Both the position numbers and the translations under genes were made by a program. Below are positions 14,022 through 57,819 of a DNA stretch of 64,000 nt, in pieces; the first letter of the stretch is position 1; each line of letters begins with the position of its first letter. The stretch comes from Caenorhabditis elegans (Eukaryota; Nematoda; Chromadorea; Rhabditida; Rhabditidae). The DNA lies in the NCBI RefSeq assembly GCF_000002985.6, contig NC_003283.11, forward strand, positions 4,402,001-4,466,000, written 5' to 3'. The notes beneath the pieces are model-generated. The model searched no databases, was not told the DNA's origin, and saw only the letters and a list, made by a program, of their open reading frames with translations.

Positions 14022-14799
14022 CTATTGCTTTCTGTGACGGAATCTACGAATCGCGTCGAGAGAAAGAGCACGACGTTGGAAATGACGGTTATGGGCGGTG
14101 CGAGCCTTTGCACGTTGACGATCTGAAAAAATATTATAAAAATTTCAAAGCCTTCTTTCTGATTGACTTACAAGATCCAGCAGAGTTTGAAGTGTAATCC
14201 ATAGCTGTTGCCGAATACGAAGCAGGTGCTGGAGCATAATTCGTCTCAGTGGGTGCCTCGAAGTTAGAAGTATATCCGGATGGGGATGGTGCTGAGTAAG
14301 ATGGCTTCTGGGCATAGTCAGATGGTGGGGAAGCCACTGGATATTTCTTCGGTGCGGTGTAGCTTGGAACAGAGTAAGATGGAGTCGTATCATAGGATGA
14401 TGGTGTTGTCTCGTAAGTTGGAGCAATTGGGTACTTCTTACTTGCGGCGTGACTTTGAACTAGGTATGATGGAGTTGTTTCATAAGATGGTGTGGTTTCA
14501 TATGTTGGTGCAATTGGGTACTTCTTTGAAACTTGGTAGCTTGGTTCTGGATAAGAAGGAGTTGTTTCGTAGGAAGCTGTAGTTGGGTAAGTTGGAGCTT
14601 CAGTTGGGTATGTTGGTGGTGCAGTTGAGTAAGCAGGCTTCTGAGCATAATCGTTGGGAGGCATTTGATAGGTTGGCGCAACTGGGTACTTCTTCGCAGT
14701 TGGGTAGGATGGAGGTGGTGTTGGATAGGTGTCCGGAACTCTATATCCACATTGAACGAGGACCACGAGAAGTGATGAGAAAAGGATGAAAGAACGCAT
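14022..14799 (-). CDS. Secreted Pro/Tyr-rich protein with basic C-terminal exon (family member A)
   Basis: Exon 1 is 14172-14799 and exon 2 is 14022-14122 (729 nt, 242 residues), joined by a phase-1 intron. Residues 1-17 are a signal peptide (MRSFILFSSLLVVLVQC) followed by GYRVPDTYPTPPPSYPT. The middle is built of YPIAPTYETTPSYETTPSY-like repeats. Exon 2 encodes a strongly basic tail starting YRQRAKARTAHNRHFQRR and ending RRFRHRKQ. This is the longest member of the first eight. A TATATA box lies 35-40 bp upstream (about 14834) and an AATAAA on the minus strand at 13956-13961. Function is not recognised. Composition fits an extracellular, intrinsically disordered matrix protein. Confidence 0.8.
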
Positions 14800-15815
14800 T
14801 GCAGGGAAAATTGTGGTTGGTATATGTTTCCCATGTTTATATACACTTGAAAATGTTAAACTCTGACCAAAAGACACTAAATGAGAATTGAAATGGTCGT
14901 TAGAGAAAATAGCTATTCTTCCTGGAAAGTCATAGCTATTAATTGGCAAAGAACGTTTCTATTTCCATTACTATAGTATGCTTCCTACCTGACTTGGTAC
15001 AAATAAGTCAATAATGGTTTTTTTTTAATTTGAAAGCGAAAAAAATTAAGTTTGGATAATAGATTTTGGAAATTATTTCGTCAATTTTTGCGATGTAATA
15101 ACCTTTTTTTCCAACAAAAAAGTTTGAAGTTATTATATTTCAAAGCATGGCAAAAATTTTAATTTAAGAATTTATTCTATAAAAACAAACGTACATATAA
15201 TAATACTTTTCAAAAAATTGTTGAAGTTTTTTTACAGTCAAAAGTGTTAAAAACTCTGTTTTCACTTATCATGTCTTTGGAAGTCGATAGAATTTTTTTT
15301 TCAAAGGACTTTACAGCTTAATTGTGTTTAAACTCTACGTAGACTCTTCAACATTTAAAATTACTCTCAGGAAGTCACATTTTTGGAAAGTTAGACAATT
15401 TACAAAATCTTTAACTGAAAACTTTGTAGCTTTTTATCATAATATTCGGAAGTGTTTAAGCATAATCCTGGGCATTTAAATGAAACCTGTGTTATTTGAC
15501 CTATTATGAATTGTTCGAAAACGTTGCTGCATACGAGAACTGTCAAGTAGAAAAAAGCCGATCTGAAATATTTTCAGGAAAATTTTTAAATTAAAATTAG
15601 TGGTCAAAATTTAAAACTTTTTCAATTTTTTTCTCGAAAAAAAATCTGCATTTTTTGAGAAAAAAGCTCAGACAAAAAATATTTTTTTTGATTTTTTTCC
15701 AGCTTTCTCCATTAATGTGAACGGTTTAATAATATTATAGCATTCTGAACATTTTATTCGCATTAAGCCGATAAATGTTGTTGAGAGAACAAAAAATGGC
15801 GACAATCCTAAATTT
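14800..15815. other. Intergenic spacer, no gene seen
   Basis: AT-rich sequence with the promoter of family member A at its left end. No repeat of note and no coding signal. Confidence 0.45.
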
Positions 15816-16216
15816 TCACTGCTTCTTCTGCTGGAATCTCTTGATTGGTTGGAGCTCACGATGCAGGTATTGTCGATTGTGAGCAGTTCGTGCTTTTGCT
15901 CTTTTGCGAGCTGAAAATTTAACGTTTTATTTTATTTTTAAAAAACCAAAAACTTACACTCTGAAGTAGATACGGAATCTTCTGCGGCGTTATCCTCGTC
16001 GCTAAAGAATTTTGAAACTTCGGCTGATGGAGCCGCCACAGCGGAATAAGTTGGCTTCACTTCACTTTCGGCTGGAGAAGATTTGTATGTCAAAGCAACT
16101 GGATACTTTTTTGCAGTTGGATACAATGGCGGAGGAGTTGGATAGCTATCCAAAACTGGGTACTCACAATGAACCAGAACAGCCATCAGCCCAGAGAAGA
16201 AAATAAGAGAACGCAT
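15816..16216 (-). CDS. Secreted Pro/Tyr-rich protein with basic C-terminal exon (family member B)
   Basis: Exon 1 is 15958-16216, exon 2 is 15816-15910 (354 nt, 117 residues). The signal peptide is MRSLIFFSGLMAVLVHC. The middle (YPTPPPLYPTAKKYPVALTY) is short and lacks the later repeats. It then becomes acidic (FFSDEDNAAEDSVSTSE) just before the phase-1 intron. Exon 2 gives SRKRAKARTAHNRQYLHREL and ends KRFQQKKQ. The acidic stretch directly before the basic tail is shared by most members and may neutralise it in the precursor. ACTATAAAA lies about 25-30 bp upstream. No function is recognised. Confidence 0.8.
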
Positions 16217-17453
16217 TTCTATTTCAGTAAGCTACTGAATTTATTTTTATAGTGTTCCAGTATCAACTTTGAACATTTAGTTTCAAAAAAAATTCAATTA
16301 ATTTTAATGGCAATTAAATTCGCGATAGTAGTCAGGAACCGCCCGAAAATCATTTTCCGTCGAGTAAAACATTGTTAGTTCATTTGTGTTGTGGAAAATA
16401 GTAAAATCTGAATTGTAGAAGTTTTATTGGTTTCTGCAGAGAAATAAGAAGAAGAAGATCCATGATCATGTGACGCCCATCTTTGATGCAATCTTTAAAC
16501 TTTTGGTAAGTTATGAGAAAATTGAGAGAAGAATTTTAGAAGTCTAGGTTTCCGATTTGATATATTGCTTTTAATTTTTTCATTGCCTGCTCAGTCAAGA
16601 GCGAGTCACGGCAACTTGGTCCAAAACCATTTCTAATTAGTAAACTCTCAAAAACCACAACTAATTAGCTTAAAATCATTGCTAATTAGCAAAAATAAGC
16701 TAATTTACAATGGTTTTAAGCTATTTAGTTGTGGTTTTTGAGAGTTTACTAATTAGAAATGGTTTTGGACCGAGTTGCCGTGACTCGCTCTTGACTGAGT
16801 ATAGAAGGAGCATCCTCGACTGGAAAATACCGAAAAGTGTAGATTCTGATTTTACGCGGGAATTCAAATTTGGTTTTTGTATTAATTTAATTGTTCGCGT
16901 GCTTATTGCAATCTTTTTTTTGATAACTTTCGGTGTATTTTCACATGCTACAAAAAAGCGCAGAAATTCCAAATTTTTAAAAATTTTTAAACGAACTTTT
17001 ATCACTGCTAACAGAATTCTCCAGTTTTCTCTTTATGCTTTGGTAAATACTTACTAAATATTTTCAGTAATTTTCCCATTGACAATGCTCCTTCCTTATC
17101 TATGTCAGATTTTTCATTCTCAGATTTCCTGAGATTAATTTTTGTTTCTTTTTTCCGATTGTTCAGAACAGAATGCTCTAAATTATGCATACTCGGTGGG
17201 AGAGGGATCTCTGGAAAAAATATTTGGTCAAAAAAATTAGAATTTCCTTTTGGTTAACCTCACTTGATTTTACAAAATGTGGGCTACCCGTTTTTGAGAA
17301 AAACTCGCACCAAATTTCGGGCCATGTTAAAAGTATATTTCTTTTCTAGAAATTGACATTTCAAACTATTTCAAAAAAAATCTTGAATTAAAAAAATTGC
17401 TTTATTTTTTTCAGTAAAAAATTTACAAAATCTTGAACCAAAACGATTTTAAT
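16217..17453. other. Intergenic region containing a 208-bp palindrome
   Basis: Apart from the palindrome at 16591-16798 this stretch is AT-rich. An open frame at 16710-17057 starts inside the palindrome and shows no family features. Confidence 0.45.
16591..16798. repeat. Foldback element with about 100-bp near-perfect arms
   Basis: The left arm begins TCAGTCAAGAGCGAGTCACG and the right arm ends CGTGACTCGCTCTTGACTGA. Internal arms share CCATTTCTAATTAGTAAACT and its complement. The loop is very short, around TTAGCAAAAATAAGCTAA. It is probably a non-autonomous palindromic repeat. Confidence 0.85.
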
Positions 17454-17867
17454 CTATTGTTTCTTCTGTTGGAATCTCTTGATTGGTTGGAGAGCACGTC
17501 GTTGGAATTGGCGATTGTGTGCGGTACGTGCCTTGGCTCGCTTGCGATCTGAAATTTTGAAAAATTGTTAGTCTTTTGTTTGAAGCTGTCTTTTACATTC
17601 GGATGTTGCGGAGGCACTGGTAGCTGATTCAGATTCAGTATCTTCTTGATTGTCACTTGAAGTATAAGCAGATGGAGCTGGTGGTGGTTGAGCAGAGTAG
17701 GATGGTGTAGATGGATATGTTGGAGCGACTGGGTACTTCTTCGGAGTTGGGTAGGATGGTGGTGGTGTTGGATAGGATGGTGTAGTTGGATAGCTATTCT
17801 CAGCAACTGGGTATCCACATTGAACAAGGATGACCAAGAGAGCAGAGGAGATGATGAAGGAACGCAT
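17454..17867 (-). CDS. Secreted Pro/Tyr-rich protein with basic C-terminal exon (family member C)
   Basis: Exon 1 is 17597-17867, exon 2 is 17454-17548 (366 nt, 121 residues). The signal peptide MRSFIISSALLVILVQC is followed by GYPVAENSYPTTPSYPTPPP, a KKYPVAPTYP repeat, and an acidic/Ser stretch (SSDNQEDTESESATSAS). Exon 2 encodes YRKRAKARTAHNRQFQRR and ends QPIKRFQQKKQ. It is almost identical to the gene at 18275-18688, which lies head to head on the other strand. A TATATAAG is 35-40 bp upstream (17902-17909) and the minus-strand AATAAA is at 17401-17406. Function unknown. Confidence 0.85.
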
Positions 17868-18227
17868 TGTTGGAGTGATGTTTCCTGTAAGGTTTCGGGA
17901 ACTTATATACTATGCCATCTTCAACTTTGATCAATTGGAACTGGAACCAGTATCCCCTTGTGATAGCTAGTTGGAAAACCCATTTCAAACAAGGGAGGTG
18001 AACTTTGGCATTTTGTAGTTTTGTAGGTAGTAGTAGTAGATTTCAGGAGTGATAAGAATTAGTTTTGCAGGCAATGCCAAAATGACCAAGCAGAATACGT
18101 TCTTAAATCTTCATATTGTACACCAAAGAACATGTATTAGTTACAGAAACCTCATAAAATAAACTACTCTTACAATTAGCTCCCTTTTTTTCAGTTCACT
18201 TCCAAAAGTTCATAGTAGATTTTTCGT

Positions 18228-18236
18228 ATAAAAGGT
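18228..18236 (+). promoter_or_regulatory. TATA box of family member D
   Basis: TATAAAAGG about 40 bp before the ATG. Comparable boxes precede the other members: 14834 (A), 16241 (B), 17902 (C), 21995 (E), 22304 (F), 26320 (H) and 27700 (I). Strong TATA elements are typical of highly and stage-specifically transcribed worm genes. Confidence 0.6.
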
Positions 18237-18274
18237 ATTTCAGGACTTCAGTCGTTATCAATTTCAACATCAAA

Positions 18275-18688
18275 ATGCGTTCCTTCATCATCTTCTCTAC
18301 CCTTTTGGTCATCCTTGTTCAATGTGGATACCCAGTTGCTGAGAATAGCTATCCAACTACACCATCCTATCCAACACCACCACCATCCTACCCAACTCCG
18401 AAGAAGTATCCAGTCGCTCCAACATACCCATCTACACCATCCTACTCTGCTCCACCAGCTCAATCTGCTTATTCTTCAAGTGACAATCAAGAAGATACTG
18501 AATCTGAATCAGTTACTGGTGCTGCTTCAACATCGGAGTGTAAGGGAAAACATCAATTTCTGACTAAAAATTCAATAAATAAATATTTTACAGATCGCAA
18601 GCGCGCCAAGGCACGTACCGCGCACAATCGGCAATTCCAACGACGTGCTCTCCAGCCAATCAAGAGATTCCAACAGAAGAAGCAATAG
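18275..18688 (+). CDS. Secreted Pro/Tyr-rich protein with basic C-terminal exon (family member D)
   Basis: Exon 1 is 18275-18539, exon 2 is 18594-18688 (360 nt, 119 residues). It has the same architecture and nearly the same sequence as the divergent partner at 17454-17867. Differences include loss of one short proline segment (SYSAPPAQSAYSSSD) and a different intron. The ATG sits about 40 bp after a TATAAAAGG (18228-18236), and an AATAAA lies at 18739-18744. The acidic SDNQEDTESES stretch precedes the basic exon 2 (YRKRAKARTAHNRQFQRR). The 407-bp spacer between the two ATGs probably holds both promoters. Confidence 0.85.
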   Translation: MRSFIIFSTLLVILVQCGYPVAENSYPTTPSYPTPPPSYPTPKKYPVAPTYPSTPSYSAPPAQSAYSSSDNQEDTESESVTGAASTSECKGKHQFLTKNSINKYFTDRKRAKARTAHNRQFQRRALQPIKRFQQKKQ

Positions 18689-18738
18689 ATTTAGTAGTTT
18701 TAGTGCAAATTGCACTGTGATTTTTTAAAACTTGAACA

Positions 18739-18744
18739 AATAAA
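18739..18744 (+). terminator. Polyadenylation signal AATAAA of family member D
   Basis: AATAAA 50 bp after the stop codon, in the expected place for a short 3' UTR. Confidence 0.6.
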
Positions 18745-19068
18745 CATTTCATAATTCAACTCATTTTTCTCAACTCAACATCAACTTAGAAATGTTATGT
18801 GTGAAGCAGTAACAGATTTTTAAAATTGAACTCATGGTGAATGCTTTCAACATTCTCCAAAACTTGCATTGAATGGTGTGGAGCATTTCCAAAAGTTTAA
18901 CAAAATCACCCGATGTTTTTGCATCCAAGACCAATTTTCAATAAGAAAAATAATCGATGTTTGATTACAAGTATGGTGTTCTTTTTTCAAAATTTTGAAC
19001 ATAAATTTTATTTTCAATCAAAGTGGAACATGAAAAGAAAAGAAAAAAGTCATTAAAACATCAGAAAA

Positions 19069-19575
19069 TTAAGCAACTTCTACGGCACCTCCCTCAGCAG
19101 CATCCTGTTCGTCCGTATTGATTCCGAAAATCTCTCTGAGTTCAGCTGTCGTTTTGCCCTTTGCCATGTTGGATACAGTCTTACAACCATAGTACATAAG
19201 ACCCTTGATGTCAAGGAAGTTTGACGCCAGAATCAAATCGAACAGAGCTTCATCCTCAATTTTCAAGAACTTTTGATCCCATTCTGGAATGGTGAGGGTC
19301 TTGAGAACATTCATATTGTCCTCTGGAATTGCATCGGCGTTGTGCTTCTCACACCATTCAGCGACCTTCTCCATAGTCTTTCCATTCACATTAGTAACTG
19401 GAATTGGATCACGGGTCTCAATGTTTTCAATGGTATAACCGAGATTCTCAATGAGATTGCTGAGAGTCTTCGATTGTTGGACGGCTTTCTCGCTCATTTT
19501 TGTCACGACTCCATCGTTTGAAATGATCTTGTAAAAGATTTGGGCGGCTGGAGCATCGGAAACTGGAGCAGACAT
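19069..19575 (-). CDS. skr-14: Skp1-related protein (SCF ubiquitin ligase adaptor)
   Basis: A single exon encodes 168 residues. The N-terminal POZ-type fold is recognisable (YKIISNDGVVTKMSEKAVQQ; SNLIENLGY; PIPVTNVNGKTM; VAEWCEKHNADA), followed by the Skp1 C-terminal helices (WDQKFLKIEDEALFDLILAS, NFLDIKGLMYYGCKTV, MAKGKTTAELREIFGI). Skp1 proteins bridge CUL-1 and F-box proteins in SCF E3 ligases. The usual last helix containing WCE is absent; the protein ends in a short acidic tail (NTDEQDAAEGGAVEVA). It is divergent from, and 851 bp away from, the paralogue at 20427. The assignment of the skr number rests on memory of length and locus and may be swapped with the neighbour. Confidence 0.88.
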   Translation of the reverse strand: MSAPVSDAPAAQIFYKIISNDGVVTKMSEKAVQQSKTLSNLIENLGYTIENIETRDPIPVTNVNGKTMEKVAEWCEKHNADAIPEDNMNVLKTLTIPEWDQKFLKIEDEALFDLILASNFLDIKGLMYYGCKTVSNMAKGKTTAELREIFGINTDEQDAAEGGAVEVA

Positions 19576-20426
19576 GGTGATGAGTATGTCGATTCTGAAA
19601 ATTGAATTCTTAGATTGCGAGATGACTGGAAAATAGAAAATAGGTAAAGGTATCGATGGCAAACCTAACTGACTAGATTTAAACTAAAATTAAATGAGAT
19701 TTTGGAAGATTATCGGAGTAAAAAAAAATTTTGACGTCACCTACAACAAGAGTGTAATAAGGTTGTAAGGCAGGCAAAAAAGGATAGAAACAGGAAAAGC
19801 AGATAGAAAACACCAGATCCAAGACAAGGAAAATTGCATAATGAATGGGTGAGTACAGACAATGCACACCGTTCTGTCAGACGCGCCGTTGAAAATGAAT
19901 CGATAAGTTGCACAATGTGTTATAGAGTCCCCTCAGCCGAGCTAAAGACGAAGAACAGCTGCAAATATAGTAGTGTGTATGTACATTTTCCAATCAATAA
20001 CTGACTTACCGCGCGTCCGATGGGTTACATTTGCAGCGTTCTCGTCGTTTAGCGAAAACAGTCTGTTCGATGGTCATTCTGTCGTTTGGCTCTCATCGCG
20101 AGCAGTCGCAATTTATTTTCTCTTACTTTTCTTTTTTCTTATGTTTTTTCCTCGTTTTCTACAGTCCTGGTCAAAAAGATATTCCTTTTATTTAGCAGTT
20201 TTGATAATTTTGAAATTTTTCAAATGGTTATAACTCTACTAAAAATGCAATTTTTCGTGAAGAACGAATGTTGAAAATATATGTGAACCAAAATTCAATT
20301 CTTTCTCGGTAGTTTCCCATTTTTCATTCTATCATTCCGCAATTTTACTCTCTTAAACTTCATCTGCACTCTTCAGCATATCTATATTGATTTATATCTT
20401 TCCAGAAATCACCCTAACTTTCAAAA

Positions 20427-21011
20427 ATGTCTGCTGAAGCCGCCGCCGTCGAAGTTCAAGCCAACGAGGCTCCAATTGTCGCCCCAATCATGTACAAGGT
20501 CGAATCAAGTGATGGACAAGTCTATGAAATCAGTGATGAAGCAGTAAAGCAGTCGAACACCCTCTCCAATCTGATTTCTACATGTGTTGCCAATGATGTT
20601 GCTTCAATGGATCCAATTCCAATTACCAATGTCACCGGAAACATCATGAAGATGGTCATTGAGTGGTGTGAGAAACACAAAGGAGAAACACTTCCAGTTG
20701 AAGATGACAGTGTTCCCAAGAACATCACTGTTCCAGAATGGGATACCAACTTCTTGAAAATCGACAACGACGTGCTCTTCGACTTGATTGTTGCCTCCAA
20801 CTTCCTTGATGTGCCTGGATTGATGAGCTATGCATGCAAGATGGTCGCCAACATGGCTATCGGAAAGTCCCCTGATGAGATGAGAGTTCTCTTTGCAATT
20901 CCAACTGATGAGGAGGATGAAGCTGCCGAGAAGGCTGCAAAGGAGAAGGCTGAAGCTGAGAAAAAGGCAATCACAGAGAAGGACGCAGCTGAACCATCAA
21001 CTTCCAAGTAA
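20427..21011 (+). CDS. skr-7: Skp1-related protein (SCF ubiquitin ligase adaptor)
   Basis: A single exon encodes 194 residues. It has the same POZ and Skp1 segments as its divergent neighbour: YKVESSDGQVYEISDEAVKQ, PIPITNVTGNIMKMVIEWCE, VPEWDTNFLKIDNDVLFDLI, ASNFLDVPGLMSYACKMVAN and KSPDEMRVLFAIPTDEEDE. The canonical WCE-containing last helix is replaced by a charged Ala/Lys/Glu helix (about residues 170-190), probably a coiled or single alpha helix. An Ala-rich N-terminal extension (AEAAAVEVQANEAPIV) precedes the POZ fold. Codon use is clearly that of a well-expressed worm gene. AATAAA follows at 21046-21051. The specific skr number is from memory. Confidence 0.88.
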   Translation: MSAEAAAVEVQANEAPIVAPIMYKVESSDGQVYEISDEAVKQSNTLSNLISTCVANDVASMDPIPITNVTGNIMKMVIEWCEKHKGETLPVEDDSVPKNITVPEWDTNFLKIDNDVLFDLIVASNFLDVPGLMSYACKMVANMAIGKSPDEMRVLFAIPTDEEDEAAEKAAKEKAEAEKKAITEKDAAEPSTSK

Positions 21012-21618
21012 CTCCCACGTTCTAAATTTTCCGAGTTTTTGATCAAATAAATTCATTTCGCTGTCATTAAACGTTTTTAATCAAAAGAATTGTACGTACA
21101 GAAAAAAGTGTTGTCCTAAAATGATAAATTATTGTGTGAGGCTCGAGGCTCAAGGTGGTTCCAAAATACAAATTTATAGAACAAGACGTTTTGAAAATTT
21201 CTCGAAAATTTTTAATCATAGTTCACAGGAAGGTGCTGGCTTCCATGGTAGGCAGGGGCGGTTTCAGGGCCTGACGCCTGCCCGAAACCTGCCCGCCTTA
21301 TGCCGGCCTTTCGCATAGGCGCGGATTGAGGCGAGAGGCGGGCGGAGGTCGCATTAAGGTCAGACAGGCAGGTGTTAAACGCCTATATAGAAGCCCTAGT
21401 CCGCTCCTAATTTAAATATTTTTCCGTAGTCGGCCGGGAAATTGTGGTGTTATTTAGTTATTTTTTGGATCAGAATTTTTGGATGTGCAGCAAATTTGCT
21501 GTAATAAAATTTGCGAAGAAGCTTCCCAAATCAAAAAATTTTCGAAAAAATGATTTATTGAATGGCTTATCGGGAAAACTTTTAAAGCGAAAAATAAATT
21601 CAATTTATTTTTGAAATT
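21012..21618. repeat. Spacer with GCCTGCC-rich repeat (about 21237-21405)
   Basis: GGCTTCCATGGTAGGCAGG at one end and ATATAGAAGCCCTAGT at the other bracket a GC-richer element with CCTGACGCCTGCCCGAAACC. It is an inverted relative of the element near 13457-13720. The rest of the spacer is AT-rich. Confidence 0.6.
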
Positions 21619-21947
21619 TTATTGTTTTTTCTGTTGGAATCTTCTGATTGGCTGAAGAGCACGGCGATGGAATTTGCGGTTTTGGACGGTACGGGCTTTG
21701 GCACGTTTGCGGACTGAAAAATGTATACTCAAAACTTTGAACATACTTAATTTCGATAAAACTCACATTCTACATTAGATTCAGTATCAACAGAACCTTC
21801 ACTATTACTGATAGAGCTTGCCGAGTAGACAGATGCAGATGGATATGAAGGAGCAACTGGATAAGATGCTGGATATGCATCAGGAACTGGGTATCCACAT
21901 TGAGCAAGGACAACCAAGAAGGCAGAGAAAATGATGAGGACTTGCAT
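21619..21947 (-). CDS. Secreted Tyr/Ser-rich protein with basic C-terminal exon (family member E)
   Basis: Exon 1 is 21767-21947, exon 2 is 21619-21713 (276 nt, 91 residues), with the same phase-1 intron as its relatives. The signal peptide is MQVLIIFSAFLVVLAQC, then GYPVPDAYPASYPVAPSYPS and an acidic end (SISNSEGSVDTESNVE). Exon 2 gives FRKRAKARTVQNRKFHRR and ends IRRFQQKKQ. The TATATAAG box is about 45 bp upstream. A copy with a nonsense mutation lies at 24157-24477, and the two share downstream flank as well (TTTATTGAATGGCTTATCGG against TTTATTGATTGGCTCATCGG). Confidence 0.8.
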
Positions 21948-22352
21948 TGTTGAAACTGGAAGTTGAATGATTTTCAGGTGAAGTTTTGATTTCTTATATA
22001 CTACTCCGTGCTACTATGGTCGGAAAAGTGAAATTGAGAAAAGTTCAGTAATCGAAGCAAGGTGTAAAGCCATAAAAGATGGAATAATGGGGTTTCTGCA
22101 ACTGTAACGGAACAATCTTTTGACCAGAAAGTTCAAACTTTAATGTGGAAAACTTTTTTGTGTTTTACCCTGGGAGGACATTTCAGTTATTATTTTGAAC
22201 ATTATTATGGGATGCGTTTGAAATGAAAATAATTTCTTTCAACAGCCAAAAAAGAAATTAGATTTCCACTTGATTTTTGATTCCTTGAAAAATGTGCCCT
22301 GGTGTATATATATAAGAAGGTCAAGAACAAAGTTTTACCACATTTTAAAAAA

Positions 22353-22689
22353 ATGCGCACTTTCATTATTTTCTCCGCACTCCTGGTAATCCTTGTTCAA
22401 TGTGGATATCCAACTAGCTACCCAGTTGCTCCAAGCTTTGCTCCGCGAGGCATCGTCCCACGATCTCTCCCCGAGCAACCACCAAGCAGATTCACTGACT
22501 GGACTGTGACGACGGATTCTGAATCGGATAACTCTGAATGTGAGATCTACGCTGAGGATTTGAGATTTAAAATTTAAAATTAAATTTCAGTCCGCAAACG
22601 TGCCAAGGCTCGCACCGCCCGTAACCGGAAATTCTAACGTCGTGCATGCACTTCAACCAATTAGGAGATTTCAACAGAGGGAGCATTAA
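22353..22689 (+). pseudogene. Family member F with nonsense codon and 4-bp insertion in the basic exon
   Basis: Exon 1 (22353-22539) is intact: MRTFIIFSALLVILVQC, GYPTSYPVAPSF, then an acidic end (TTDSESDNSE). Exon 2 starts at 22591 with FRKRAKARTARNRKF and then meets TAA at 22635-22637, where the relatives have a Gln codon. Eight bases further, TGCA is duplicated (22643-22650), shifting the frame. The remaining sequence would otherwise encode LQPIRRFQQREH and stop at 22689. Translation as it stands gives 77 residues lacking the last third of the tail. It may be a decayed copy or a shortened but working one. A strong TATA (22304-22314) remains. Confidence 0.65.
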
Positions 22690-24156
22690 AATTTGAATAC
22701 GTGTTGATAAGAATAAATTTTCAAAATTAAAGTTTCTATCGGATAAACATTTTTTAAAAAAACGTTGCAAATCTGTGAAATTGGCATGAACTTAAAATAG
22801 AAAATATATGTATGGATATGGAGAAATCTGTATCTCACAAATTTTGTCAAGTGGTGTTGTTTGGAGAACTGAGTGTCGTAGCTCTGAAAAATAATTTTTC
22901 AGCTTTCAAAACTCTTCTAAAATCAGAAATGTTTTCATTCAGATATTCTAGCATATTTAGTGTCTACATATAGGCAATTTTTTATCGGTACCGTCTAATT
23001 GCACAATGGAAACTTTTTTTAACTTCATGGTCATGTTCGTTATATAAACCATGTGATTATGTTTTAAAACAATTTTCAAACTCTGAAAATTCTCACCTGC
23101 CTACAAGGCGACATATGTCTACCTACCTTTTGCCTACCTATTTTAATAGTTTATCAAGCCTCTTTTGTGATTTAAGTACAGTTTTGCTCAATAGGTGCAT
23201 AAATTATTGCCAAAATCGTAATAAATAACTGAAAATCAGCATTGAAGCCTCACAAAATCACAATTCTCAAGATGTAATTTATTGAAATTGGGAAGCTGTT
23301 AAAAAAATATTTAATATTAGTTTTTGACCTTTTACTGTGTCTTCTTTTGGAATTATCTATGATAGAAGTGTACGCTTTGGCACATTTTCGGTTTAAAACT
23401 TAAAGTTATATGTTACTTTGATCACTGAAAAAATGAATCTCCTTTGTATTTTACAAAAAAAGTTGAACTAGAACTAATGAGGTTCTTTTTATCATTAGGA
23501 TGTAACAATGTGAACTTTCGAACTGTTGATTGGTTGCTCGGCATTTGGCTCTAGCTTCTTGCCCAAGTTTAGCCCAAAAAATATTAACTTGGATCAGAAG
23601 CTGTCTAAACTTGGACAAAAGTTTGGCAAAAGTTTGGCAAAACTTGGATTCAAGCTTTACCAAAGTCTAACCCAAGTTTCACCCAACTCTTGCCAAGCTT
23701 TGGGCCAAGTTTGAAACGAAATAAGAAAAGTTAGGGCCAAAGTTTGGCAAGAGTTGGGTGAAACTTTGGTTAGACTTTGGTAAAGCTTGAATCCAAGTTT
23801 TGCCAAAGTTTTGCCTAACTTTTGCCCAAGTTTAGACAGCTTCTGATCCAAGTGAATATTTTTTGGGCTAAACTTGGGCAAGAAGCTAGAGCCAAATTCC
23901 GAGTGGTGTTTGGAGTGTTGGAATTGTTTCAGTAAGTAAAAGTTTAAAGCAATTTTATTTGGAAAATATGTTTTTCTGAGAAAAACAAACTAATTTATTG
24001 CTTCTTCTGTTGAAATTTTAAATTTAATTGCATATTACTTTATTTAAATTTTCAACAACCAAACACAACACATTTTTTTTTGAAAAAAATATTTATTGAT
24101 TGGCTCATCGGGAAAACTTTTAAAGCAAAAAATTGTTTCAATTTATTTTAAAAATT
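22690..24156. other. Intergenic region with a 365-bp foldback
   Basis: No gene was seen. It contains short GCCTACCTGCC-type repeat pieces near 23100-23150 and the large foldback at 23538-23902. Confidence 0.45.
23538..23902. repeat. Foldback element built from TTGGCAAAAGTTTGGC units
   Basis: The left arm starts TCGGCATTTGGCTCTAGC and the right arm ends GCTAGAGCCAAATTCCGA. Both arms are full of short units like CCCAAGTTTAGCCC, AACTTGGACAAAAGTTTGGC. The arms are about 175 bp each and nearly perfect complements. It may have arisen from a minisatellite like those near 57.8 and 60.2 kb. Confidence 0.85.
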
Positions 24157-24477
24157 TTATTGCTTCTTCTGTTGGAATCTTCTGATTGGCTGAAGAGCAC
24201 GGCGATGGAATTTGCGGTTCTGGACGGTTCGGGCTTTGGCACGCTTGCGGACTGAAAATCTTTTACTTCAAGTTTAGGACAATTGATATAACTCACATTC
24301 TACATTAGATTCAGTATCAATAGAACCTTCACTATCACTGATAGAGCTTGCCGAGTAGTCAGATGCAGATGGATATGAAGGAGCAATTGGATAAGATGCT
24401 GGTTATGCATCAGGAACTGGATATCCACATTGAGCAAGGACAACCAGGAAGGCAGAGAAAATGATGAGGACTTGCAT
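24157..24477 (-). pseudogene. Family member G: near-copy of member E with an internal stop
   Basis: Exon 1 (24297-24477) and exon 2 (24157-24251) have exactly the lengths of member E (181 and 95 nt). The signal peptide MQVLIIFSAFLVVLAQC and tail (FRKRAKARTVQNRKFHRR) match E. At 24403-24405 the codon corresponding to Tyr in PDAYPASY is TAA, so the product would stop after about 24 residues. Splice sites remain good. Retention of an otherwise intact frame indicates a recent loss. Confidence 0.75.
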
Positions 24478-25826
24478 TGTTGAAACTGGAAGTTGTTGGT
24501 GTATAGTCTTAAAACTTACGCTCTTAAATACTATTTCTACTTTGATTTGTGTTCGAAAAGATGCCTACACTCACAAATGTAGTAGTATTGCAGAGGAAAG
24601 GTGAACCCATAAACTAAAATTTATGGGTTCCTGCTGGTGTAATAATGTGAACTTCTGAACCGAAACAAGGTGTGTCCGAATAGTTTCTGAAATTTGGTTA
24701 TTGATGTGTCCTGTTCTGGTCCAAACTTATAAAATTCAGAATGGGTTACAATTTTTTTAGGTTTAAAAAATTTTTAGCTGTTTCAGCACGGAATGTGCAG
24801 CCTTTTCAGCGCCATCAGAGTCCTTACGGAACTTTAAAAACACACACATACGGTGCTGAAAACTTTAATGTGGAATAGTTCCAGTGGAATAAATATTTAA
24901 AATTTTGGAAAATTGGTGCCAAGCAGGGGTGCGCGGCAATTGCCGTCCGGCGATTCTACAAAATGAGCTAGGAGATGAGCATTCTCCCAATATTTTTCAT
25001 TAAACTTTTGTGATAAAAAATAGAAAAATATTTTCTGTGTCTGAAAATGATTTTTAGTTGACCTGCAACAACTGAAAAAATTCTCAAAAATTGTCATAAC
25101 GTAGAAAATTGCCGGCATTTTTTGTTGATAATTTGACTGATTTTTTCCGGCAGTTTTCAACTTTGGGGCGGCCTTTGAGCACTTTTTTCAGTTTCTACAA
25201 GTCGATAAAAATTATTTTCAGACAGAGATAGTAAATTACTAAGCCTTGAAAGCCTTTTCTAATATTTTTTTTAATTCGTCGTTTTATATTTTAGCTATTT
25301 CTTAATTATCTTGAAACATGCAAGAATGCTCTAAATTTGCCAAAACGTCGGCGTTTTTTAAAAATTAATTTGGCAAAATATCAAAACACTGCATGAACTT
25401 TTTAAAAGTCTAAAACATTTTGAATTTTTTTTTCAAATCCATCGGGGAGAGCGCTAATCGGAAGTTTTCCCCAATTTTCAAATTTGTTGAAGTTGTCTAT
25501 TGCTGAAAATGTAAAGATTTTTCAAGAAAATTTCCAAATTCAACCTGGCCATAATCGGTCATTTTCTCACAAAAATGCCAAATTTTTCGAGGTTCGAGAC
25601 AATTTGAGCTTAAAAAAGGAAATTTCTGCCACAGAGTAGAACATTTTAAACTTTATAAATATATACCAATTGTAATTTCCGATTTTCGGAAGCTGCTGGG
25701 TTTTTTTTATTAATTTTTAATTTATTTAATTTTTGACTCTTTTATATTTTGAATGAAATAAATTTCTATCACATCTAAAAAATGTTTATTTCATTTTCAA
25801 AAGCATATATTCAATCACATAGCAAT
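24478..25826. other. Intergenic region, no gene seen
   Basis: AT-rich sequence. A small GGCGGCCTTTG / GCGGCAATTGCCG fragment near 24940 resembles the dispersed GGCAATTGCC repeat. No supported gene. Confidence 0.45.
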
Positions 25827-26286
25827 TTATTGTTTCTTCTGTTGGAATCTTCTGATTGGGGTGAGAGCACGACGTTGGAATTTGCGATTGTGGGCGGTAC
25901 GTGCCTTGGCGCGTTTGCGGTCTGAAATTTGATTCTTGGAGGTTTTTAGAAAACTTTTCAATCGCACGATTAATTTGCTGCTCCAACTCACACTCAGAAT
26001 TTGGAGAAGCAGTGGTGTACTCAGAGTCCGATGCTACCTCGTTATCGCTGAACGAGCTGGAGGAGTAGACGGATGGAGCTGGTGGTGGTGGAGCAGAATA
26101 CGATGGCTTCTGGGCATAAGCTGGTGGGGATGGATATGTTGGAGCGACTGGGTACTTCTTCGGAGTTGGGTAGGATGGTGGTGGTGTTGGATAGGATGGT
26201 GTAGTTGGATAGCTATTCTCAGCAACTGGGTATCCACATTGAACAAGGATGACCAAGAGAGCAGAGGAGATGATGAAGGAACGCAT
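25827..26286 (-). CDS. Secreted Pro/Tyr-rich protein with basic C-terminal exon (family member H)
   Basis: Exon 1 is 25992-26286, exon 2 is 25827-25921 (390 nt, 129 residues). The first 60 residues (MRSFIISSALLVILVQC, GYPVAENSYPTTPSY, KKYPVAPTYPSPP) are essentially identical to members C and D. It then differs: YAQKPSYSAPPPPAPSVYSS and an acidic end (SDNEVASDSEYTTAS). Exon 2 encodes YRKRAKARTAHNRKFQRR and ends IRRFQQKKQ. The upstream CCAATATAAAAGG combines a CCAAT and a TATA element. The minus-strand AATAAA is at 25785-25790. The near-identity of exon 1 starts suggests recent duplication or gene conversion. Confidence 0.83.
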
Positions 26287-26999
26287 TGTTCGGAAGATCA
26301 GTGATTTGACAAGCATCCAGTACACCTTTTATATTGGCTGCGAAAGGTGACTTTTGACCAACAAAACTAGTATCCGGATGATGAATAGCATAGTAAATAA
26401 CAATTTGATGGGTAGGGGTTCTGCTAGAAAAGAACAATTGGTTCCCTAATGTATTTTTCATTTTTTGGCGAGAGTTTCAGAGATGAAACTTGAAAAAAAT
26501 CTAATAGATTTTTGAAACTAGTTTGGAGAATGTTGTATTTGGGCACGAAACTACCAGAAAAACATTTCGTTGAACATTGAACCTGACTATAACATCTTTC
26601 AGTAATATATTAATTAAGAATTTCAACGTAACTTTTTCTATAAAATTGGAATAGTTTTAATTTACCGACAATAATTGTAAAACATTTTTAGAATTTTCTG
26701 ATGGTTTTTTTGATTAAAAAAATTTCCGAAAAAATTTCAAACGGCTGATTTGTTTTCGAAACAAATGGTTTTTAAAAGGTTAAATTAAAGTCAAATGATA
26801 ATTTATTTTTTGCCCATTTTTTAGTATAACTGACTACTACAGCCGGAAAATGCAAAAATGTTAAGTGAGTCATTCTTTTGCGGGGAAATTTTAAAAAATA
26901 ATTCAGCCATTTTTTTTGTCCGTCTGAAAATTTAAATTTAACGTTTTATCAAAATCAAAGACCATTTATTGAAAGAAATTGAAAAAATAATTTTGCAGT
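26287..26999. other. Spacer, promoter of family member H, otherwise nothing seen
   Basis: AT-rich sequence. No repeat or coding signal was recognised beyond the TATA region near 26320. Confidence 0.4.
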
Positions 27000-27648
27000 T
27001 TATTGTTTGGCTTTCTTTTGGAATCTGAATCTTCTAATCGGTTGAAGGTGACGGCGTTGATGGAGTCTGCGGTTTGGAGCAGTACGAGCACGAGCACGAG
27101 CGCGAGCCTTGGCTTTGGCACGTCGGCGGTCTGGAAATTCAAATTTTCTAGTTATTCAGGTTACAACGAAAAAACTCACATCCTGAAGATGCTCCAGCTC
27201 CGGTGGCTGCGGGGGTTCCAGCGGAAGCAGAATTATAAGTTCCGTAGTTCAAGGAGTTTCCACCGACGATTCCTCCAGACGACAAAGATCCTCCGTAGGT
27301 TGGGGAAGATCCACCGTAATTTGTAGATGAAGATGATGAGCCCACGATTTGAGCATCAGTTGGTGGTGCAGGTGGTGATGCTGCAACATTTGAAGTAACT
27401 GAAGCATCATCTGACGAGTAGCCACTGGGCGCCGGTGGTGGTGGTAGTGGAGGTGCTGTTACAGGTGCCGAGTTCTGAGGGAAGCTGTGCTTCGTAGCAT
27501 ATGCTCCAGGAGCAGTTGGATAGGACTGCTTCGGGACTACATAGGAATCCGATGGCGGTGGTGGTGTTGGGTAACTGTTCTGAGCAACTGGGTAACCGCA
27601 TTGAACACCAATTAGGAGTAGGGTAGTGGAAAGAATGAAGAATTTCAT
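27000..27648 (-). CDS. Secreted Gly/Pro/Ser-rich protein with long Arg-rich tail (family member I)
   Basis: Exon 1 is 27180-27648, exon 2 is 27000-27130 (600 nt, 199 residues). The start (MKFFILSTTLLLIGVQC, GYPVAQNSYPTPPPPSDSY) follows the family, but the middle becomes Ser/Gly-rich (SSSSSTNYGGSSPTYGGS). This resembles the glycine-rich genes next door. Exon 2 is longer than in other members because of an AlaArg expansion (YRRRAKAKARARARARTAP) before the conserved LQPIRRF ending. GGAACGGTATAAAAG lies about 50 bp upstream and the minus-strand AATAAA at 26965-26970. It is a diverged outer member of the cluster. Confidence 0.8.
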
Positions 27649-29820
27649 GATGGCTAAGAGCTGTTGAACAACTCATGGTCTAACCTTGTCTCATGTGCAC
27701 TTTTATACCGTTCCAGTCGTCACCTTTGACCACTTATTTAGAAACCGGAAAGTGGGAGGAAGGTGACTATTCGTTATTCAACGACTATTCCTAATTTCAC
27801 ACCTTTTGTACCGCCCTGAACGACCTCTAGTTGGGGGGAATTCGAGAAATGCAAAGCCTGTGATTTAAATTGGAACTTTCTTACACGAGAAAGTTATGAA
27901 TTGGTTCCAGTAGTATTTTGAATAAATAACATAGAGTATTGTGTATTTCTTGAAATTTGAAGTTTTGAAAAATTAGCAAAAACAAGGTTTTGCTCCCGAG
28001 TTTTTTTTTGAAGTTTTACTAGCAGCGGCAATACTGCAAAGAATTTAATTTAAAAGGTGTTTGTTCTTGAGTCTAAAAAAAATTGAAAAATAATTAAATC
28101 TTTAATTTTTCCTCCCATTTTCAACAAAAACGGGTAAAAACATATGCCCGATTTTATTTTTTATTTTATAAATGTGGTATTTTAAAAAATGTAATGATTT
28201 AACAATTCTCATTTTCACTTTTGTTTTCTTCAAGTTACATGAAATAATGGTGTCCTTATTTGAATATGACATTTTCTGAACTGAAAAGTCGATTAAAGAC
28301 CAATGAAACATATTTAGTTGTGTAGACTAAAGGAACTTGAGAGAAAACCCAAAATATTTGCAAACTTTTTTTTTCTTAAATATTTGAAGTACTTCACAAG
28401 AACAGTACACGTTTGTAGTTTGGACTTGAATTGCGTGTCGAGGGCCTGAAAAAAATTAAGCACATAGTTTAGTTCCAGTGGAATACATGACTTAGCTGGA
28501 AATTAAAATATTCAAAATATTTTATTGTTCTGTTAAAGTTCTCAACAAACCGTTAAGGAAAGTATTTCAGCTCACTTTCAGGCTTCCAAATAAAACAGAT
28601 GCCATTTAAAACAGGACCTTTCAAAAAGGCCGCTACAAAAAAATTAGCCGCAGACGAGCATTTTGAACTAGAAAAAACTCGATCTCGAATTGTATTGCAC
28701 TTATTCATTATTTTAGAGGCCCACCAAGTTGCTTCAAATTTTATTTTTGAAAATGTTCATATTTTCGGGTATTTCAAAATAGGCAAAAAATTCTTGAAGC
28801 TTTTCGGAGAACATTTTTTTTTGAAAAAAATAACTGAAAAATCTCCATATCCAGTTGGCTTAAAAAAGCTTCAACTTTTTTTAAACAAAAAAACCGAAAA
28901 GCTTTCAAAATATCTGTCTACTTCGAGTTTCCCTAAAAAATCAGAACAGTTTTCTAAAATTATCATTTGGAGCAATTTGACGGGCTTCTGAAGTTGGGAT
29001 ACTTCAAAAATTGAATTATTTGTAGATGAATATGACTTCACGGGATTCAATAAAGGGCTGACAATCATCGAAATTTTCTGGAAATTCGATCATACGACAT
29101 TGGTCGAGTTTTAAGATTTTTGGCGTTTTTTATAATTTGACAATTATCGAGTTCAAAAATGTTAGAAAAAAAACAACAACAAATTCCAAGCAAAAATTCC
29201 TACTTTCCTACTAATTTTTACTGTAAATGTTTTTTCACTCTCATAAAAATGTGCAATTTCTCCTCCTATGAACTGGACATTTTTTTTTGAAAGTTCAACA
29301 ATTGCCGTTTCCGTCTAAGTCATTAAATCTAATATTTTAAATCCTGTACACTTTTTCAGGCCATTCTTGGAATTTTGCTTACATTGGAAATTTCAAGAAA
29401 ATTCAAACTCCCAAATACTTCAAAAGTTTAATGGGATAATCTGATTTCTGAATTCTAAACCCGGAATTCCTAAACACTTTTTTTCACGTGGCCTCTCTCT
29501 CTCTCTCTCTATCCACTTCAAAATGTCCACTTGGGGGACACTAACTTCCGGGAGTTGATCATCGGTTTCTAGCGAAAAAGAATGACCTTAAACCGAAACC
29601 ATTTCCACGTGCCAAACTTCACCCACTTGTCGTTTGTATTCTGAATTGTTTGTACATTAATGGAATTCAAAAAGAACCTTGAGACAAAAAGTGTTTATAT
29701 TTTTTCTTTACAACTATTGAAAATTGAACTAGGATTTCAAAAAAAAAGGGAGAACTGTCGAGATGATGAGAAAGTTTAAAACATGTACAGACAGGGACCA
29801 TAGCTTAAAGACGATGAAGT
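27649..29820. other. Intergenic region, no supported gene
   Basis: AT-rich sequence with a CT dinucleotide run at about 29493-29512. An ATG-initiated open frame at 28599-28991 begins with a Lys-rich stretch but soon becomes low-complexity Phe/Lys sequence. I do not support it as a gene. Confidence 0.45.
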
Positions 29821-31178
29821 TTAAGCCTTTGAGAGGTGCTTGCGATATCCAGATGAAGAAGAAGCGGAGGTCTCGACAACTTGCTCAGTTCCTTGGGATC
29901 CGTATTCCTGGAACAAACACCTTTTTAGTTAAGTTTTAAAATAATTTGAATTACCTGAGTTTGAGCTGCTGGTGCAGATTCAAAAGTTTGAGTTGGAGCT
30001 GGAGCGGCCTCGAAAGTCTGTTGTTGAACAACGGTCTCCTGTTGAGCTTGAACTGGGGCTTGCTCCTGGTAGGTCGAAACTGGAGCTGGTGCAGAGACGA
30101 TAGCGGTTTGTTGTTGTTGTTGGTATCCTTGTTGGCCTCCTCCGGATACAGCTGCTGGTCCTGGGCCTTGTTGGTATCCAGCTCCTCCTTGGGCTCCTCC
30201 GAATCCCCCGGCTCCTCCTTGAGATCCACCGAATCCTCCTTGGGATCCTCCAGCATATCCACCGGATCCTCCTTGAGCTCCTCCGAATCCTCCGGCTCCT
30301 CCTTGTCCAGCTCCTGCGTATCCTCCAGCTCCTCCTTGGGATCCACCGAATCCTCCGGCTCCTCCTTGTCCAGCTCCAGCGTATCCTCCGGATCCTCCTT
30401 GAGCTCCTCCGAATCCTCCGGCTCCTCCTTGTCCAGCTCCTGCGTATCCTCCAGCTCCTCCTTGGGATCCACCGAATCCTCCGGCTCCTCCTTGTCCAGC
30501 TCCAGCGTATCCTCCAGCTCCTCCTTGGGATCCTCCGAATCCTCCTTGGCCGGCTCCAGCGTATCCACCGGATCCTCCTTGAGCTCCTCCGAATCCTCCT
30601 TGTCCGGCTCCAGCATATCCTCCAGCTCCTCCTTGGGATCCTCCGTATCCTCCTTGTCCAGCTCCAGCGTATCCACCGGATCCTCCTTGAGCTCCTCCGA
30701 ATCCTCCTTGTCCGGCTCCGGCGTATCCACCGGATCCTCCTTGAGCTCCTCCGAATCCTCCTTGTCCGGCTCCGGCGTATCCTCCGGCTCCTCCTTGGGA
30801 TCCTCCGAATCCTCCTTGTTCGGCTCCGGCATATCCTCCTTGGGATCCTCCAAATCCTCCGGCTCCTCCGTAACCTCCTCCTCCGATGGCTGGTGCAGCT
30901 TGGTACGCTCCTCCAGCTCCACCTCCATATCCGCCTCCATATCCTCCTCCGATTGGAGCTGGTGGCGGTGGTGGTGGTGGTGGTGGAGCGTAGGCAGCAG
31001 CAGCTGGAGCAACAGCGTATCCGCCGCCGCCACCGCCACCTCCTCCGCATCCTCCTCCGCAGGCTGGCTTTGGTGCACAGCATCCGCCGCCACCGCCACC
31101 TCCTCCGAGGCCGAGAAGTGAGAAGAGGAATGCGTTAGAGCATCCGAAGAGGGCGAGAAGGACTACGGTCTTCATCAT
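29821..31178 (-). CDS. Large glycine-rich secreted repeat protein
   Basis: Exon 1 is 29955-31178, exon 2 is 29821-29907 (1311 nt, 436 residues) with a 47-nt phase-0 intron. The signal peptide is MMKTVVLLALFGCSNAFLFS. A Cys/Gly segment follows (CCAPKPACGGGCGGG), then polyproline. Residues about 110-335 are some 17 repeats of GGYAGAGQGGFGGAQGGS type. After that comes a Gln-rich region (QQGYQQQQQ) and an Ala/Gln/Glu tail. Exon 2 ends GYRKHLSKA. Aromatic/Gly spacing of this kind is typical of disordered, self-associating cuticle or lining proteins. A TATATAAAAGG sits about 210 bp upstream (31390-31400). Very regular codons keep all frames open on both strands, so antisense frames here are artefacts. 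Confidence 0.85.
30180..30880 (-). repeat. Coding tandem repeat (about 36-54 bp units) in glycine-rich gene
   Basis: GGA-rich units encode GGYAGAGQGG and FGGAQGGSGG. Copies differ mainly by synonymous or Ser/Ala changes, and higher-order pairs (AGGFGGSQGG / AGGFGGAQGG) repeat. This points to recent unequal exchange, and length variation between strains is likely. Confidence 0.8.
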
Positions 31179-32991: not shown

Positions 32992-33927
32992 CTATGCCTT
33001 GGCGGCCTTCTTGAGGTGGAATCTCTGGCGGTATCCGGAAGCGGAAGTCTCAACGACTTGCTCGGCAACAGCTGGCTGCTGGGCTCCGTACTCGGCGGCT
33101 GGCTGAGCTTGAGCTGGGGCGGCTTCGAAGGTTTGTTGGACAGTCTCTTGTTGGGCTTGGACTGGAGCCTGCTCTCCGTATGAGGCAGCTGGAGCCTGCT
33201 CTTGGACTGGAGCTGGGGCTTGCTCTTGGACTGGGGCTTGTTGCTGTTGTTGGTATCCTTGTCCGACTTGTTGTTGCTCAGTGACGACGGCGGCTGGGGC
33301 TTGTTGCTGGTATCCGGCTCCTTGAGCTGGGGCTTGTTGCTGGTATCCGGCTCCTTGAGCTGGGGCTTGTTGCTGGTATCCGGCTCCTCCTCCGACAGCT
33401 GGTCCTTGTTGGTATCCGGCTCCTTGGGCTGGGGCTCCTCCTTGGTATCCAGCTCCTCCTCCGATTGGTCCAGCGTATCCTCCCTGAGCTCCTCCTCCGA
33501 TTGGTCCGGCTCCGGCGTATCCTCCCTGAGCTCCTCCTCCGATTGGTCCAGCTCCGGCGTATCCTCCCTGAGCTCCTCCTCCGATTGGTCCAGCTCCGGC
33601 GTAACCTCCTTGAGCTCCACCGAATCCTCCTCCAATTGGTCCAGCTCCGGCGTATGAGCCTCCTCCTCCGATGGCTGGGGCGGCTTGGTAAGCTCCTCCG
33701 AATCCTCCAGCTCCTCCGTATCCACCTCCTGGTTGAGCGTATCCTCCACCGATTGGTGCTTGTGGGGCGACGGCGTAACCTCCGGCAGCTGGAGCACCTC
33801 CTCCGCATCCTCCACCGCATGGTGGTGGTGGTGGTGGGGCACAGCAGCCACCGCCACCTCCTCCGAGAAGGTTGAAGAGGAAGGCGTTAGAGCATCCGAA
33901 GAGAGCAACGAAGACGATGTACTTCAT
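32992..33927 (-). CDS. Glycine-rich secreted repeat protein, single exon
   Basis: The product has 311 residues. Signal peptide MKYIVFVALFGCSNAFLFN is almost the same as the neighbour at 31178, as is the Cys segment (CCAPPPPPPCGGGCGGG). The middle has repeats of GGYAGAGPIGGGAQ, then AGYQQQAPAQG. The C-terminal third is Ala/Gln/Glu-rich and ends ASGYRQRFHLKKAAKA. It is clearly a paralogue of the other glycine-rich gene but without its terminal intron. CTTTATATA (TATATAAAG on the coding strand) lies at 34124-34132, about 200 bp upstream. It is probably extracellular and disordered. Its N-terminal Cys/Pro/Gly layout also resembles the linker of the ground-like gene at 10879-12578. Confidence 0.85.
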   Translation of the reverse strand: MKYIVFVALFGCSNAFLFNLLGGGGGGCCAPPPPPPCGGGCGGGAPAAGGYAVAPQAPIGGGYAQPGGGYGGAGGFGGAYQAAPAIGGGGSYAGAGPIGGGFGGAQGGYAGAGPIGGGAQGGYAGAGPIGGGAQGGYAGAGPIGGGAQGGYAGPIGGGAGYQGGAPAQGAGYQQGPAVGGGAGYQQQAPAQGAGYQQQAPAQGAGYQQQAPAAVVTEQQQVGQGYQQQQQAPVQEQAPAPVQEQAPAASYGEQAPVQAQQETVQQTFEAAPAQAQPAAEYGAQQPAVAEQVVETSASGYRQRFHLKKAAKA

Positions 33928-56739: not shown

Positions 56740-57140
56740 CTAGAATCTTCCGCAACCGGGAACTGTCGGCAGAAAAAACTTAACTTTTCGGCAACCGGAA
56801 ACCGAGTTGCCGGAAATTTTTTAAACCGGCAATTGCCGAAATTGTCGATTTGCCGGAAATTTTGAAAACCGGCAATTGCCGAAATTGTAGATTTGCCGGC
56901 AATTCTGAAAACCGGCAATTGCCGAAATTGTCGATTGCCGGAAATTTTGAAAACCGGCAATTTCCGAAATTGTAGATTTGCCGGCAATTCTGAAAACCGC
57001 CAATTGCCGAAATTGTCGATTTGCCGGAAATTTTGAAACCCGGCAATTGCCGGAAACTTCGAAACCCCTGCAATCCTCGAAATTGCCGATTGCCGGAAAT
57101 TTTGAAAACCGGCAATTTCCGAAATTGTCCATTGCCGAAA
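56740..57140. repeat. Tandem array of AAACCGGCAATTGCCGAAATTGTCGA units
   Basis: About eight to nine units of roughly 40-43 bp: CCGGCAATTGCCGAAATTG then TCGATTTGCCGGAAATTTTG. Each unit contains the palindrome CGGCAATTGCCG. It resembles the intronic GGCAAATTGCC arrays but is more regular. Open frames rich in GNCRF are artefacts. Confidence 0.85.
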
Positions 57141-57819
57141 ATCAGAAATGCCGGAAATGCAAATTTGATACTTTTTCTATATTTAAGAGCTCAAACATAA
57201 ATTAACTTTTAACTGAGCGGTCTAGGTAGGCATTTTAATACCTACCTACAACTCATATTAGCTCCGGAACTGAAGATTTATTCGAAAAAAACTTATTTTC
57301 CTCGAAGCACACTTTATAAATGATACCTCTTTCTTTTCTAGCAAAACATCGAGGTGGCATTTTTCTTGCACGTGCATGTGCTGCAATATAATAAACGGTG
57401 TGAATTGAAAGAAAATAAGCGACACGCGACATATACACAACGCTTAATGAGACGCTTTTGACGAAGGGATGAGTAGAATGAATGAAAAAAGAAAACAATC
57501 GCCGCGCGAGAATCGAATTCAGAGAATAAGGGAGATGCTTTTGAGAAAATAAAAATTAAAGATGAATCTGACACGTTGGTCTTTGTTCGGCTTAAATAGC
57601 GCGGAGAGCTTACTCGGAAGGTGACTAACAAGGAGAGAGTAATTTTAGAATAAATAATAGAATACACAAATATATTTTTAGAATTTCCTGATTGCTAGAG
57701 GTTTGGAAAGGAAAGTTCTGGAATTTTTTGAAAGGTATTCGAGTTTTTTGACAGGTTTTCGGGATTGTACTAGCCTATTAACTGTATGTTAGAGTTCACA
57801 CAGGTGCAAATTTTTACGA
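57141..57819. other. Intergenic stretch of mixed composition
   Basis: About 57280-57640 is less AT-rich, with CAACGCTTAATGAGACGC and CAATCGCCGCGCGAGAATCG. It looks unlike neighbouring repeat DNA. I see no splice-supported exon, so it may be regulatory or part of an unrecognised transcript. Confidence 0.3.

Follow-up and report, generated by a model that had tools for sequence, protein, structure and literature searches.

A cluster of two-exon genes with a conserved cationic tail exon on Caenorhabditis elegans chromosome V, a possible family of secreted glue- or coat-type proteins

Nine two-exon loci, designated here A to I, are clustered at positions 14022-27648 of the window, a 64,000-nucleotide stretch of Caenorhabditis elegans chromosome V (V:4402001-4466000, clone Y47D7A; all positions are counted within it). 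Each of them joins a hydrophobic N-terminus, which by inspection is a putative signal peptide, and a loosely constrained middle to a short basic exon 2 through a single phase-1 intron. Our tentative reading, held with somewhat less than even confidence, is that these genes form a local family with rapid turnover, whose products would be secreted, disordered proteins of glue or coat type, docked through a polycationic exon and perhaps specific to males. Gene models were drawn from the sequence alone, without cDNA, and the loci are presumably already predicted as genes in WormBase. At the level of these models the loci are coding and two of the copies (F and G) are broken. Secretion, disorder, docking, crosslinking and the sex of expression are what we infer from the features described below.

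The exon-2 tail, named the most constant part of the family in an earlier note on this DNA, was confirmed as such. The ratio of the proportions of nonsynonymous and synonymous differences (pN/pS) is lower in the tail than in the middle in all nine pairs compared, which are not mutually independent, with Fisher p<0.05 in three of them (E-G, B-C and C-E). Tail exons of C and D differ by five synonymous and no amino-acid changes, and exactly the same holds for E and G, so that 10 of 10 differences over these two pairs are synonymous (rough p 2e-7 under neutrality). Fourteen columns are invariant among the seven intact tails, where those of C and D are identical, and since these columns include T, N, L, I and F, more than charge appears to be conserved. 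As judged by these comparisons, the tail is under purifying selection at the protein level, beyond the similarity expected from recent duplication. In the seven intact members its net charge ranges from +10 to +19 with an isoelectric point (pI) of 12. An AlphaFold2 model places a helix at residues 2-18 with a mean predicted local distance difference test score (pLDDT) of 70, which is a weak indication, and within each tail the 18 residues of highest amphipathicity are hydrophilic (mean Eisenberg value -0.50 to -0.73). A DNA profile of the A-H tails recovers these eight by construction; it also finds the tail of I, absent from the profile, with E 5e-9. Two weak matches of the same profile at 23350-23391 (E 2.5) and 23996-24016 (E 0.44) may be decayed tail exons.

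The middle of intact members contains 7-15% Tyr and 14-26% Pro, and cysteine is absent past the leader. Gly makes up 0-5% in six of the seven and 12% in I, Gln and Asn together 1-8% in all of them. A KKYP[VI]A unit is present in four copies in A and in one copy each in B, C, D and H, but is missing in E and I. The acidic run ascribed earlier to every copy is found in five of the seven intact ones: over the 30 residues that precede the tail, B, C, D, E and H have a net charge of -4 to -6, whereas A reaches only -3 and I is neutral (0). Nor does the middle vary freely, as had been supposed: its pN/pS is 0.25-0.72 in eight of nine pairs (the exception, at 1.66, is E-G with its broken copy G), and near-identical DNA covers approximately the first 158 nt of the coding sequence in C, D and H, with 104 identical bases common to all three. 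By these measures constraint on the middle is looser than on the tail, yet present. Identity of C and H extends from 4 bases upstream of the start codon through coding base 158 (rough p 1e-6 at the synonymous divergence of the tail); the flanks are unalike, and the tails of these two copies differ by 11 changes. Because the identical tract sits within unalike flanks, it suggests that gene conversion has acted across 8.4 kb, or that part of an exon was copied over this distance.

Seven loci (A, B, C, E, G, H and I) are located on the minus strand and two (D and F) on the plus strand, i.e. orientation is mixed. Locus A consists of a 628-nt exon 1 (14172-14799) carrying the four KKYP[VI]A repeats and a 101-nt tail exon (14022-14122). 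Exon 1 and the tail exon occupy, respectively, 15958-16216 and 15816-15910 in B, 17597-17867 and 17454-17548 in C (whose first 158 nt are those shared with H), 18275-18539 and 18594-18688 in D, 21767-21947 and 21619-21713 in E, and 25992-26286 and 25827-25921 in H. Exon 1 of I (27180-27648) codes for a Ser/Gly-rich middle without an acidic run, and its tail exon (27000-27130, 131 nt) has an expanded AKA/RAR stretch. C and D lie head to head as the arms of an inverted repeat, 405 nt apart. Locus F (exon 1 at 22353-22539, tail exon at 22591-22689) is broken by an in-frame stop inside the tail exon, followed downstream by a 4-bp insertion, and G (24297-24477 and 24157-24251) by a stop at codon 25 of exon 1; its tail exon stays open and is the one that differs from E only synonymously. 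Including the stop codon, exon 2 has 95 nt in B, C, D, E, G and H, 101 in A, 131 in I and 99 (95+4) in F, precisely as noted before. The earlier description of nine loci with a hydrophobic N-terminus, a phase-1 intron and a basic exon 2 was thus reproduced, while only seven of the nine gene copies proved to be intact. Their proteins have 91-242 amino acids (91-129 in five of the seven, 242 in A and 199 in I), and the introns of all nine models are 45-70 nt long. The 54-nt intron of D (18540-18593) is in frame and free of stops, so its retention would still yield a cationic tail.

The family appears to be local. Genome-wide searches covered the C. elegans assembly (100,286,401 bases, 7 contigs). 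Among the best candidates scored, every match fell within the cluster: 8 for the tail query (E<=10), 16 for the D protein and 8 for the I protein. A pattern scan of bacterial and archaeal genomes picked up 128 stretches, of which none was confirmed; the best match among PDB sequences had E 0.16, and those in NCBIfam were weak and far under the cut-off (best E 0.0027). For the seven intact members Pfam returned nothing above the cut-off, and for the tail by itself no family at all, in agreement with the earlier failure to recognise a described domain. Sub-threshold matches were to New_glue (PF21827; E 0.026, 14.7 bits against a cut-off of 31) in three of the seven members, to CCDC106 (best E 0.01), also in three of the seven, and to two further families in one member each. 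Passages of the literature on Y47D7A, hpo-37 and Tyr/Pro-rich male proteins yielded no account of these loci as a family; subscription papers and supplements were largely outside that search.

By their signals the nine loci look like complete transcription units. A TATA-like box lies 35-59 nt upstream of the ATG in each of them, against 9% of 100-nt stretches drawn at random outside the cluster, and AATAAA follows each stop codon within 120 nt, against 13% of random 120-nt windows. Besides the TATA box some promoters carry a common element, seen as TCAAAGTTGA in B (16244-16272), GATCAAAGTTGA in C (17902-17932) and GGTCAAAGGTGA in I (27700-27731), all on the minus strand. With no more than two mismatches it occurs in six of the nine cluster promoters and in 3.1% of random 160-nt windows, a count which is partly circular, since the consensus was derived from the same promoters, and which partly reflects ancestry. 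The strict pattern GRTCAAAGKTGA combined with TATA has two matches in the genome, both inside the cluster (control 0). A looser one, TCAAAGKTSA with TATA, has six, three of them inside the cluster, as compared to 12 for the reversed control pattern, and the three matches outside are followed by no evident open reading frame for a secreted protein. Since strict matches are confined to the cluster and the loose pattern falls below its control, the element marks the cluster, and its candidacy as a general code was rejected. Tandem galectin genes with signal peptides at C1:11.24 Mb and C4:4.14 Mb, which we presume from clone names by chromosome position to be the male-specific F46A8 and F49F1 groups, have 16 candidate starts, of which the nine with an MRL leader were taken as a promoter set and seven left out. 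TATA is found 45-48 nt upstream of the ATG in eight of these nine starts, and the block CTATAAAACATG is common to six of them.

Based on these features one can imagine a mechanism in which the cationic tail would attach the protein to polyanionic partners, either glycosaminoglycans and mucin-type glycans or the acidic spacers of other family members, and the Tyr-Pro body would supply cohesion, possibly via tyrosine crosslinks. Duplication and gene conversion would adjust the number of copies and repeats. If at least one member is hpo-37, as gene numbering suggests, secretion would probably take place in males, in the reproductive tract or the male tail. A more elaborate proposal, which we regard as unlikely in its full form, is a nematode male-specific glue: an array of disordered Tyr/Pro polymers anchored by a swappable cationic exon to anionic glycans, for example on the vulval surface or in the mating plug of mucin, where gene conversion under sexual selection would homogenise or reshape the bodies of the proteins.

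Male secretion becomes possible because hpo-37, a putative member, is male-specific: passages of PMC3439400 report a 462-fold excess in young adult and a 606-fold excess in adult males. In passages of PMC3048360 hpo-37 is Y47D7A.10, with function listed as unknown, and RNA interference (RNAi) against it gave 56% survival on Cry5B and 104% on buffer. Literature passages also provide the anchors for clone numbering: grl-5 is Y47D7A.5, skr-14 is Y47D7A.8 and rft-2 is Y47D7A.14. They were placed, respectively, at 10.9-12.6 kb (ground-like domain at 10.9 kb), at 19-21 kb (Skp1 genes) and with a start at approximately 48.5 kb (primer), so that the numbers rise along the minus strand. Between.8 and.14 the candidates on this strand are E, G, H, I and two Gly-rich genes. 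Since these six share five numbers, hpo-37 is likely to be H or G, provided that this order is kept throughout and that the plus strand has a numbering of its own.

Several observations weigh against the glue or coat reading. The family members are known here from their sequence alone. A strong acidic spacer is missing in A and there is none at all in I, and in two pairs pN/pS of the tail comes close to that of the middle (0.20 versus 0.25 in C-H, 0.17 versus 0.27 in D-H). The New_glue match, being far under the cut-off, is probably compositional. Assignment of hpo-37 depends on the order of clone numbers and on the assumed separate numbering of the plus strand, and rft-1 (.16), located at 41 kb, breaks this order, although it may be a later addition. 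The RNAi phenotype of hpo-37 in worms fed Cry5B is odd for a male-only gene if, as we presume, hermaphrodites were scored. Finally, the promoter element was found with no more than two mismatches in none of the nine promoters of the presumed male-specific galectins; three mismatches were registered in six of them, against 19% of control 150-nt windows at this stringency or better, which is weak evidence, as these genes are paralogues.

The same loci may code for ordinary disordered proteins of the apical matrix (cuticle or pharyngeal cuticle), produced by both sexes at molts and similar to the IDPA/IDPB/IDPC/APPG families. This idea, to our mind possible though somewhat unlikely, differs from the glue reading mainly in the place and timing of expression, and it gains from neighbours of matrix type: grl-5 and, at 30 and 33 kb, a pair of Gly-rich proteins that start with a hydrophobic leader and likewise finish in a short basic tail. 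Y47D7A.13, which according to literature passages rises together with collagens, pqn-5 and abu-6, could also be brought in its favour, but by number order this is probably the Gly-rich gene at 33 kb, outside the family, and therefore uninformative about the cluster. Besides, the middles are poor in Gln and Asn and, in six of the seven intact members, in Gly, and the main text of PMC9629831, where the pharyngeal families are described, does not contain "Y47D7A". A decaying tandem array with little function, whose duplicates drift to loss, would account for two broken loci out of nine, for the possible weak relics and for the elevated pN/pS of the E-G middle. It is hard to reconcile with purely synonymous tail changes in two close pairs and with TATA and AATAAA retained at all nine loci, which makes it very improbable.

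The earlier note offered a matrix tether, a phase-separating partner or a cationic effector peptide. A protein of matrix or glue type would fit the composition and the Tyr-Pro repeats; the effector peptide is the weaker option. If the proteins were processed to yield secreted cationic peptides with an antimicrobial or signalling role, the acidic segment would neutralise the tail until cleavage at the basic exon boundary. In line with this, the acidic segment adjoins the basic tail in five of the seven intact members, basic residues are present at the boundary and dibasic pairs within the tail, and, according to the RNAi data above, silencing of hpo-37 leads to sensitivity to a pore-forming toxin, which is relevant only if hpo-37 is a member. 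However, furin-type RXXR is found at the boundary in none of the seven intact copies (six have a dibasic pair there and A has RQR), internal RR is missing in B, and the long repeat bodies would have no role. Because the tails are very hydrophilic, forming at best a modest cationic helix, the junction is free of RXXR, and A and I have no clear acidic propiece, we consider the peptide-precursor scheme improbable.

Some other features of the window deserve mention. Two skr (Skp1) genes lie inside the cluster at 19.1-21.0 kb, and the cluster is flanked by the ground-like gene grl-5 and by two Gly-rich proteins with hydrophobic leaders. The latter are encoded on the minus strand (29821-31178 and 32992-33927), and in both VVETSAS..SGYR leads into a short basic C-terminal tail (SGYRKHLSKA and SGYRQRFHLKKAAKA), which recalls the Y-R-[KQR]-R start of the cluster tails. 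As a general C-terminal tag SGYR was rejected, with 12 genome matches versus 7 in the control and only these two Gly-rich neighbours convincing. An inverted repeat at 23537-23903 (170-nt arms, 95% complementary, 27 nt apart) includes an Rfam match to mir-266 (23745-23827, minus strand), so the annotated microRNA may be a part of a long transposon-type hairpin. Another one, between B and C (16590-16799), has 101-nt arms that are 95% complementary and 8 nt apart. Tandem arrays of TTGCCGGAAATT-like units are present at two distant sites, 41774-42130 and 56803-57142.

If the cluster does encode a glue or coat, C. elegans would offer a genetically easy system for disordered adhesive polymers with a sequence-specific charged anchor, and would also show how such arrays evolve through gene conversion and loss; hpo-37 would gain a concrete biochemical hypothesis. 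Otherwise this is still a tidy case of a conserved exon under purifying selection joined to a loosely constrained disordered body. Among known adhesives, mussel foot protein 1 is built of Tyr/Pro/Lys repeats, and the Lys-Tyr-Pro and Ser-Tyr-Pro repeats of the cluster resemble it, a likeness of composition without evidence of homology or of 3,4-dihydroxyphenylalanine (DOPA).

Within C. elegans the closest parallels are the IDPA, IDPB, IDPC and APPG families of the pharyngeal cuticle, which, like the predicted products of the cluster, are secreted, disordered, low-complexity paralogues; in passages of PMC9629831 IDPC-2 undergoes phase separation in vitro, and IDPC-1 is Y47D3B.6. The 5' primers for IDPA-3 and IDPB-3 have no match within the 64-kb window. 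Male-specific secreted families listed in passages of PMC3439400 (C-type lectins, galactose-binding lectins, scl-8 and try-5, with hpo-37 alongside) carry named folded domains, while the correspondence of hpo-37 to a copy of the cluster is only proposed here.

The ng and Sgs genes of Drosophila have a similar layout: a short secreted protein with a low-complexity middle and a conserved C-terminus (Arg/Lys-rich in ng), encoded by small families. In passages of PMC10835880 an ng protein is defined by its length, a signal peptide, a middle of Ala/Thr type and a C-terminus rich in Arg and Lys, and passages of PMC10835880 and PMC6352337 describe inversions and gene conversion of Sgs3b/7/8 together with premature stops in several Sgs genes. 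The putative signal peptide of all nine worm loci and the strongly basic tails correspond to this definition. The ng genes lack introns, and their products are Ala/Thr-rich, contain runs of at least three Thr and stay below 180 amino acids, whereas the worm genes have a Tyr/Pro body and an intron in all nine models, TTT occurs in none of the seven intact proteins, and five of these seven fall under the length limit, which A and I exceed. Because of the length of A and I, the absence of Thr runs, the intron and the New_glue score below the Pfam cut-off, the cluster, as modelled, is not a member of the ng genes; at most it is built alike, and the likeness is one of layout.

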